From Arthrobacter sp. KBS0702 (GTDB lineage: Bacteria > Actinomycetota > Actinomycetes > Actinomycetales > Micrococcaceae): 64,000 bases of DNA. The notes beneath the pieces are model-generated. The model had not been told where the DNA came from, searched no databases, and saw only the letters and a list, made by a program, of their open reading frames with translations. Both the position numbers and the translations under genes were made by a program. Positions 23,924 through 25,702 of this stretch are shown here, piece after piece. The DNA is taken from positions 496,001 through 560,000 of the forward strand of contig NZ_CP042172.1 of the NCBI RefSeq assembly GCF_005937985.2, read 5' to 3'. Numbering within the stretch: the stretch's first letter is position 1; each line of letters begins with the position of its first letter.

Positions 23924-24020
23924 CCGTTGATCGTGTCACGGACAAGGACGGAGCCGGTGAAGAATCCCTGCGGTCACCAAGGCGCCCGTCGAACCAGTCC
24001 GGCTCAGTAGAGTGGCACGC

Positions 24021-24389
24021 ATGAGTCTTGAATGGGAACAAGTAATTGTCGATTCGGCACGACCGGCTGAGCTTGGACTTTGGTGGGCCACAGCTTTGGG
24101 TTGGGTCGTGACTTTGGAAGCTGACGATGAGTTCGAAATTCGTTCTACACCGGACCGGTTGCCGGGGTTGGTCTTCGTGCCGGTGGCCGATTCGAAGGTA
24201 ACGAAGAATCGTCTTCACCTGGATTTCCGGCCGGACGATCCAGCGGCCGAGGTCGAGCGGATGATCGCTCTGGGTGCCCGCAGGGTCGATGTTGGTCAAG
24301 GCGAGCGGCCGTGGACTGTACTTGAGGATCCAGAAGGCAACGAGTTCTGCGTTCTGGGCCCCCGAAAGAAGGCCAGTACCGACAGTTGA
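24021..24389 (+). CDS. VOC-like domain protein (122 aa)
   Basis: The product is a short single-module protein of the glyoxalase-like type: MSLEWEQVIVDSARPAELGLWWATALGW at the start, the central LVFVPVADSKVTKNRLHLDFRP, and WTVLEDPEGNEFCVLGP at the end. This pattern is common in actinobacterial 'VOC family' proteins whose function is unknown. ATG 24021 is preferred over one nine bases upstream. The region after its stop, up to the MerR gene at 24662, contains no convincing gene; a short minus-strand tail ending RQQSTLREALVQAMDRRRA at 24427 may be a remnant. Confidence 0.8.
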   Translation: MSLEWEQVIVDSARPAELGLWWATALGWVVTLEADDEFEIRSTPDRLPGLVFVPVADSKVTKNRLHLDFRPDDPAAEVERMIALGARRVDVGQGERPWTVLEDPEGNEFCVLGPRKKASTDS

Positions 24390-24624: not shown

Positions 24625-24655
24625 TTGACCCTCGACTAGGTCGAGACGGGAGAGT
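24625..24655 (+). promoter_or_regulatory. MerR-type promoter and operator
   Basis: A ttgacc -35 hexamer (24625-24630) is followed at once by the dyad ctcgac-tag-gtcgag (24631-24645), placed where MerR-family regulators bind, between -35 and -10. With the long spacer typical of this class, the -10 would fall near 24650 and the transcript would start almost at the ATG at 24662. It implies that the regulator controls its own promoter. Confidence 0.65.
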
Positions 24656-24661
24656 GCAGAC

Positions 24662-25702
24662 ATGGAGAACGAACTGCTCGGCATCGGCCGGCTGGCATCA
24701 CTTAGTGGACTGCCCGTAAGTGCGCTGCGCTTTTACGACGGTGCCGGTGTGTTGCCGCCGTCGGTCGTCGACCCGTCCTCTGGGTATCGGTTCTATCATC
24801 CGAGCCGGGTGGTTCACGCTCGGCTGGCGGCGCACCTGCGGCGGGTTGGCCTTCCGTTGGAAGACATCCGGACGATCCTGGCGGAACCGTCCCAGGCTCG
24901 GTCGATCGTGGCAACTCATCTCGCGCGGCTGGAAGCGGGTCTGGCCGACGCCCTCAGGGAGATCTCCATCGTTCATCAACTACTAGAACACCAGGAGATC
25001 ACCATGACCCGATGCACGTTGTCTGCCGCCGAACTCATTCGAGCACTCGGAGAAGTTCGGTATGCGATCAGTGACGACCCGGATCAGCCGCGCCTGAACG
25101 GGGTTTTCCTCGACAGCGAGCCTGGCCGGTTGCGTGTGGTTGCGACGGACCGGTACCGACTCGCCGCCAGCACGGTAACCATGTTGCAGGAGGCCGAACT
25201 GCATGTGCTGCTGCCCGTGGCAGCGGTTGACGAATTGCTCGCCAGTAACCACACAGGGTCCCTGGAGGTCGTCGTGACCGGCGACACGATCGCCCTGACT
25301 GGCGATGACGGCACCATCCACACGGAGGTCGTTGACGTCGACTTCCCGTCGTATCGCAGCTGGCTCGACCTCGGCCATCGTGAAGTCCCCGTCGACGCCG
25401 CGGCGTTGAGGGCCGCACTCCATGCAGCTACGACCGAGACCTTCACCCGAGACAACGACGGCGTGGCCTACGACGTCAGCCGGCTTAGCATCACCTCAAG
25501 CGGGGTGGAGGTCGGCGCATCCGAAGACCCTGACGCGCTCGTCATCGGGGTGAACCGCGCGTTCCTCCTGGAGGCGCTTGGGACCGGCGACCAGCTCACC
25601 CTCGGTCTGGATGATCCAATCGCGCCATTGGCCATCCGCAACCCAGACCGAGACGGCACACTGTCGATCCTCATGCCCGTCCGCCTCGAACAGCCGGTCT
25701 AG
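24662..25702 (+). CDS. MerR regulator fused to a partial DNA polymerase III beta-clamp (DnaN-like) domain
   Basis: The 346-residue product joins two unrelated modules. Residues 1-75 are a MerR winged helix (GIGRLASLSGLPVSALRFYDGAGVLPP...SGYRFYHPSRV), followed by the family's dimer helix to about 115. Residues about 117-346 match the second and third domains of the sliding clamp: LIRALGEVRYAISDD, LNGVFLDSEPGRLRVVATDRYRLA, the VDFPSYRSWL strand, NRAFLLEALGTGDQLTLGLDDPIAPLAIRN and the clamp's C-terminal signature ILMPVRL. Domain 1 of the clamp is absent. Self-regulation is suggested by the MerR-type operator in its promoter, and a strong terminator follows. Whether it binds the replication machinery or senses another ligand through the clamp fold is unknown. 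Confidence 0.85.
   Translation: MENELLGIGRLASLSGLPVSALRFYDGAGVLPPSVVDPSSGYRFYHPSRVVHARLAAHLRRVGLPLEDIRTILAEPSQARSIVATHLARLEAGLADALREISIVHQLLEHQEITMTRCTLSAAELIRALGEVRYAISDDPDQPRLNGVFLDSEPGRLRVVATDRYRLAASTVTMLQEAELHVLLPVAAVDELLASNHTGSLEVVVTGDTIALTGDDGTIHTEVVDVDFPSYRSWLDLGHREVPVDAAALRAALHAATTETFTRDNDGVAYDVSRLSITSSGVEVGASEDPDALVIGVNRAFLLEALGTGDQLTLGLDDPIAPLAIRNPDRDGTLSILMPVRLEQPV

Follow-up and report, generated by a model that had tools for sequence, protein, structure and literature searches.

In the 64,000-nucleotide stretch of Arthrobacter sp. KBS0702 analysed here (contig NZ_CP042172.1, positions 496,001 to 560,000; hereafter the window), one gene joins a MerR DNA-binding head to domains II and III of the DNA polymerase III sliding clamp, DnaN, the two domains whose pocket takes up clamp partners and antibiotics. 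The anatomy of this fusion is well supported. We propose that it acts as an autoregulated switch of the TipA type, a sensor and decoy for ligands of the clamp pocket built from a reused piece of sliding clamp, a reading that we judge about equally apt to be right or wrong. It draws on a clamp pocket that is kept while the ring contacts are not, on a second start codon where the helix meets the clamp, and on a promoter of MerR-type geometry. The features concerned are the following, in window coordinates:

24625..24630, + strand: -35 element TTGACC
24631..24645, + strand: MerR-type dyad CTCGAC-TAG-GTCGAG within the 19-bp spacer
24650..24655, + strand: -10 element GAGAGT, 6 nt upstream of the ATG
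24662..25702, + strand: long product, MerR-clamp fusion of 346 aa (open reading frame with domain and fold matches)
24683..24883, + strand: MerR helix-turn-helix domain, residues 8-74 (profile matches)
24887..24988, + strand: long helix, residues 76-109, presumed dimerisation helix (secondary structure of the model)
24993..24997, + strand: internal Shine-Dalgarno sequence AGGAG, 6 nt upstream of the internal ATG
25004..25702, + strand: predicted short product of 232 aa from Met115 (start codon 25004-25006), clamp domains II-III alone
25007..25348, + strand: clamp domain II, residues about 116-229
25142..25162, + strand: pocket motif ATDRYRL, covering the positions of E. coli Thr172-Leu177
25382..25687, + strand: clamp domain III, residues about 241-342, without the dimer contacts located around E298-E304 in E. 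coli
25673..25687, + strand: C-terminal pocket motif MPVRL, equivalent to E. coli Met362-Leu366

The original prediction, made from the letters of the window, had described a MerR head joined to clamp domains 2 and 3, with domain 1 missing and a C-terminal LMPVRL signature, and in all of this it is borne out. The N-terminal helix-turn-helix is matched by PF13411 (E 2.9e-12) and PF00376 (E 3.5e-8), each above its own cut-off, and in the single-chain model a helix is predicted directly after it, at residues 76-109, as is typical of the MerR family. The clamp part consists of domains II and III instead of the three of DnaN, and the protein reaches 72.3 bits against TIGR00663, short of the equivalog cut-off of 137.65. 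The C-terminal part is a clamp module and not a TipAS-like binding domain.

Clamp pocket and second start

Protein searches at E up to 0.001 gave at least 1261 and at least 1856 matches, with the 8000 candidates sharing most words scored. From a scan of GTDB genome contigs the best 80 of 451 confirmed stretches (L005-L084) were kept, which favours nearer relatives; they come from Nocardioides, Knoellia, Phycicoccus, Blastococcus, Pseudonocardia, Kitasatospora, Streptomyces, Micromonospora, Asanoa and other genera. For the pocket, 80 fusions were aligned with 12 DnaN proteins (that of E. coli, the window's own and ten from the G196 family), leaving out L021, an open reading frame of 205 aa that is apparently frameshifted. 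At the 18 pocket residues described for the E. coli clamp (PMC11139829), the consensus of the fusions is identical to that of actinobacterial DnaN in 13 cases, against 53 of 212 other positions and none of the seven scored at the ring dimer interface (I272, L273 and E298-E304 as reported for the E. coli clamp). Entropy is 0.76 in the pocket and 1.59 across scored positions, and the pocket positions that drift are R246, V247 and V344. The window protein shares ATDRYRL with the DnaN of its own genome, has Asn at position 320 and Phe in place of Tyr323, and keeps MPVRL; it carries Thr and Glu at the positions of Ile272 and Leu273, and the Glu298-Glu304 stretch is gapped. Glu at interface position 298 is kept in 14 of the 80 fusions. 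Judged from this alignment, the pocket used by clamp partners and antibiotics is retained, and the ring contacts are replaced or deleted. The original prediction had suggested examining how far the pocket is conserved, and had offered peptide sensing or reuse of the fold as a ligand sensor; with the pocket kept and the ring interface lost, these are the right pair of ideas.

The second start, which the original prediction did not mention, lies at the boundary between the helix and the clamp, where 78 of 81 genes have a start codon (66 ATG and 12 GTG; L062 was shifted by one codon by hand in the alignment). Valine at this position is encoded exclusively by GTG, though GTG makes up 1282 of the 2943 valine codons of these genes, and the GTG-start genes span several genera, including Blastococcus, Pseudonocardia, Kitasatospora and Micromonospora. 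A Shine-Dalgarno-like word at -18 to -4 is present in 78 of the 81 genes, whereas 300 synonymous recodings had it in 44 on average and in 54 at most; as the sequences are related and hence not independent, this test overstates significance. The mean anti-Shine-Dalgarno energy at the boundary start is -7.5 kcal/mol, against -5.4 (standard deviation 0.24) in the recodings, and in 58 of 81 genes the site lies within the top 5% of in-frame positions by this energy. In L060, L072 and L077, which have no start codon at the boundary, a clear Shine-Dalgarno sequence was likewise not seen. Three database proteins of 232 aa each (P0085, P0092 and P0095) start exactly at the boundary Met, two of them on contigs of less than 1 kb that perhaps left the gene caller little choice. 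The second start goes beyond what synonymous codon choice would produce, and the gene may give a long and a short product in the manner of TipAL and TipAS.

The promoter and its copies in relatives

The MerR-type dyad that the original prediction had placed in the gene's own promoter is there, and it recurs with the gene. Among 81 loci, 80 could be scored (L020 lies at a contig end and lacks upstream DNA), counting as start the in-frame codon closest to offset 38 from the first base of the -35. All 80 have, upstream of the fusion, a 31-bp site that fits the consensus at 20 or more of 28 positions, a 19-bp spacer with the dyad, and a -10 with A second and T last; the -35 is TTGACC in 73. In 44 loci the two arms of the dyad match at all 6 positions, in 23 at 5, in 12 at 4 and in one at 3. 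An in-frame start follows 37, 38 or 39 nt past the first base of the -35 (8, 57 and 15 loci, respectively), which leaves 6-8 nt between the -10 and the start codon. MerR-activated promoters are described as having spacers of 19-20 bp (PMC8113463). Because of the 19-bp spacer and the closeness of the -10 to the start, the geometry is that of a MerR-activated, leaderless promoter, and the gene is probably autoregulated and read from a leaderless mRNA. The probable leaderless arrangement adds to the dyad noted originally; a literature search for a leaderless TipA found no paper.

In the window's genome the exact site occurs once, in the gene's own promoter. Further targets there were sought by allowing up to three mismatches and were set aside, as this gave 22 matches, one of them exact, against 17 with the reversed pattern. 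Copies of the site upstream of dnaN and of MFS transporters, which are new here, appear in relatives. In a genus of 51 genomes that we take to be Micromonospora, from identical site coordinates in G274 and G197 (L015, Micromonospora matsumotoense), the strict pattern has 92 matches and its reversed control none: 45 in the promoter of the fusion itself, 31 at 600-800 bp upstream of dnaN and 16 elsewhere. A looser scan of the 1300 bp upstream of dnaN, at a consensus score of at least 20 of 28 (reached by 0.2% of 1020 mononucleotide shuffles), finds a site at -688 to -714 in 46 of the 51 genomes, some of them degenerate, such as that of G247, which has no -35. The site keeps its promoter geometry, with the 19-bp spacer and the -10. 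DnaA-box-like repeats sit between it and dnaN, so it may act on the origin instead of on dnaN. The five genomes without it are G095, G251, G277 (an indel variant at -690), G280 and G253. The fusion itself is matched in 50 of the 51 genomes (E up to 1e-30; two split or partial), G280 being the only one without a match and G253 having a weak, partial one (E 2e-46); that both fall among the five would happen by chance at about 0.008, by a hand calculation that ignores kinship.

Eleven of the 16 other strict matches lie upstream of MFS transporters that start 38-39 nt past the first base of the site, and nine of these share a contig with dnaN, at a distance of 40-54 kb; the one protein checked matches PF07690 (E 9.1e-26) and, below its cut-off, TIGR00900. 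Three lie upstream of small TPR-like proteins (L289 by matching DNA alone), and the last two are unclear, one of them being followed by a protein that resembles YunG (L292 from 110, by resemblance alone). Outside Micromonospora, the site precedes an MFS gene (64% identity) and a TPR-like protein in G219, of the same family, TPR-like proteins in G238 and G233, and a YunG protein (PF24585, E 6e-37; L300 from 1501) in the Asanoa genome G204. Sites with one mismatch add two in G196 and one in G133, the latter within an apparent coding region.

In L244, L246 and L247, the second dnaN copy and genes with a common IEWT.R.GT.G start, which we take to resemble a phage Gp37/Gp68-type protein, are no more than about 6 kb apart, as if carried together on a mobile element.

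Distribution of the family

Near-full-length matches at E < 1e-80 are found in nine of the 197 genomes of the window's class and weaker ones (E 1e-37 to 1e-48) in nine others, which makes the distribution of the family patchy. These weaker matches are diverged MerR-clamp proteins (L085-L093, e.g. L087:1984-3063) that form a clade of their own. In a tree of domains II-III with 41 tips, for which 20 of the 55 fusion rows of one alignment were used, the fusions group apart from DnaN (support 94) and divide into clade A, which includes the window protein (99), and clade B, formed by the nine (100). Clade B has a TTGACCTTC-type promoter, the pocket motif ATDRYRL/M and a weaker subsite II. None of its nine proteins has a start codon with a Shine-Dalgarno sequence at a shared boundary position, and four have an in-frame GTG nearby, which argues that the clade A start is not structurally required.

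In one clade B locus (L090:1335-2957) the open reading frame continues into a part that, by eye, resembles small TPR-like proteins, and such proteins in L291, L304 and L307 carry the clade A site upstream; the run-on hints that the TPR-like protein belongs to the MerR-clamp system. A conserved operon was looked for and discarded, since neighbours are genus-specific and no common operon emerged; a serS-like gene (by eye) lies downstream in 18 loci, and in the window a small VOC-like gene (by eye; 24012-24389, same strand) ends about 270 bp upstream of the fusion gene. Members are named 'DNA polymerase III subunit beta family protein' or 'MerR family transcriptional regulator' in databases, and our search of the open-access literature, which does not extend to subscription papers, gave no paper describing the fusion by title or abstract.

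A proposed switch and its alternatives

In the switch that we propose, the long form would sit as a dimer on the dyad of its own promoter and would activate it once a ligand fills the clamp pocket. Translation of the mRNA would then give, beside the long form, the short one made of domains II-III, and the latter would bind the ligand and keep the real clamp free. In Micromonospora, dnaN would be raised by this switch as well, as would an MFS pump in some of the species. The window's genome has a single matching site, in the gene's own promoter. We infer that antibiotics of the griselimycin/mycoplanecin type, which target the clamp and are reported to occupy this pocket on DnaN (PMC10817943, PMC5694481), are the likeliest ligands. 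The fusion would then be a resistance switch made from the drug's own target, with domains II-III as sensor in the long form and as mass-produced decoy in the short one, and with dnaN and, in part of Micromonospora, an efflux pump raised as well, a version that we hold somewhat more tentatively than the switch itself. The decoy and the dnaN and pump sites fit it because mycobacterial resistance to griselimycin is reported to involve amplification of the dnaN region and because producers hold a second DnaN.

Known systems offer partial parallels. TipA of Streptomyces lividans (TipAL/TipAS) and AlbA of Klebsiella oxytoca (AlbAL/AlbAS) also join a MerR head to a C-terminal binder; TipA is described as self-controlled, with one gene giving a long and a binder-only short form, and the authors of the AlbA study assumed the same (PMC6078987). 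Unlike theirs, the binder of the fusion is a clamp module and not a TipAS-like helical domain, and its sensor derives from the putative drug's target. With DnaN the fusion shares the domain II-III fold, the pocket residues and the LMPVRL end, but it lacks domain I and the ring interface, is fused to MerR and has its own promoter and second start. GriR and MypR, the additional DnaN genes carried by producers of griselimycin and mycoplanecin, are likewise DnaN-derived and linked to a DnaN-targeting drug, and are described as self-resistance genes within the biosynthetic clusters (PMC10817943). The fusion differs from them as a regulator with a MerR head and without domain I, and is not a whole second DnaN. 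In BlaR1 and MecR1, too, a resistance sensor carries a domain resembling the drug's target, as proposed here; they signal through a membrane protease, whereas the fusion is of MerR type and its domains are unrelated to theirs.

Several observations weigh against the switch. Alignment columns 95 and 96 have a Shine-Dalgarno energy nearly equal to that of the boundary site and no start codon, and Met or Val is conserved without a strong Shine-Dalgarno sequence elsewhere (column 30 in 80%; Met338, invariant, in 80 of 80); as neither element is unique to the boundary, it is their combination that distinguishes it. The equivalent of Arg365 is absent in 10 of 80 fusions. The dnaN and MFS sites belong to Micromonospora, with G219 added for MFS, and not to the window's genome; G206-G209 (Nocardioides, Pedococcus and Knoellia), when scanned, likewise had the self site alone. 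A dnaN link across the G196 family was rejected: of 11 genomes that have the fusion, among them the Micromonospora genomes G196 and G095, the site was found in G196 alone, against none of 18 without the fusion (Fisher p 0.38; G236, one of the 18, has its locus cut, which hides most of the upstream region), so the link is a feature of the genus. Second dnaN copies were also dismissed as targets, with no site in the seven examined (best score 18 of 28). Finally, conservation of the pocket would hold equally if it served the cell's own clamp-binding motifs.

On that last point turns the idea of a clamp homeostat, in which the pocket senses free proteins with clamp-binding motifs (polymerases, repair factors) and their excess over DnaN switches on the fusion and, in Micromonospora, dnaN. 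A pocket conserved as in DnaN, the site upstream of dnaN in 46 of 51 Micromonospora genomes and the nearly core status of the fusion there (50 of 51) agree with it. The patchiness elsewhere (nine near-full-length matches in 197 class genomes), the self site alone in the window's genome and in G206-G209, and the MFS and YunG targets do not, and we consider it unlikely. The position of the Micromonospora site, about 690 bp upstream of dnaN with DnaA-box-like repeats between, would also suit a fusion that displays its pockets at the origin, between dnaA and dnaN, and recruits or titrates replication factors without acting on dnaN expression; neither the window's genome nor the sampled genomes of other genera have such a site, and the promoter geometry (19-bp spacer, -10) is kept although recruitment alone would not need it, which makes this very unlikely. 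We give as little credit to a phage or toxin protein as the ligand, one that blocks the host's clamp pocket and is soaked up by the short form: protein inhibitors of the clamp exist, such as SocB, as reported (PMC5694481), and Gp168 (clamp complex 7evp), and the distribution is patchy, but the neighbours are genus-specific (though no search with a library of defence genes was made) and an MFS transporter as target speaks for a small molecule. No more probable is a clamp fold that merely serves as scaffold for an unrelated small molecule, as MerR regulators are described as answering signals from metals to drug-like compounds (PMC8113463) and R246, V247 and V344 drift, but the positions that contact clamp partners are on average the conserved ones.

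If the switch operates as proposed, a family of actinobacterial proteins would detect clamp-targeting antibiotics through a copy of the target's own pocket, soil bacteria would have a route to tolerance that combines a decoy with overexpression of the target, and a transcription factor would be linked to dnaN and the replication origin. The fusion could also serve as a reporter for the discovery of new clamp inhibitors, and, should the resistance version be right, clamp-targeting natural products would be commonly met by actinomycetes. Whatever the ligand, the fusion offers a clear candidate case of a leaderless, self-controlled gene that encodes a second product from a domain boundary.
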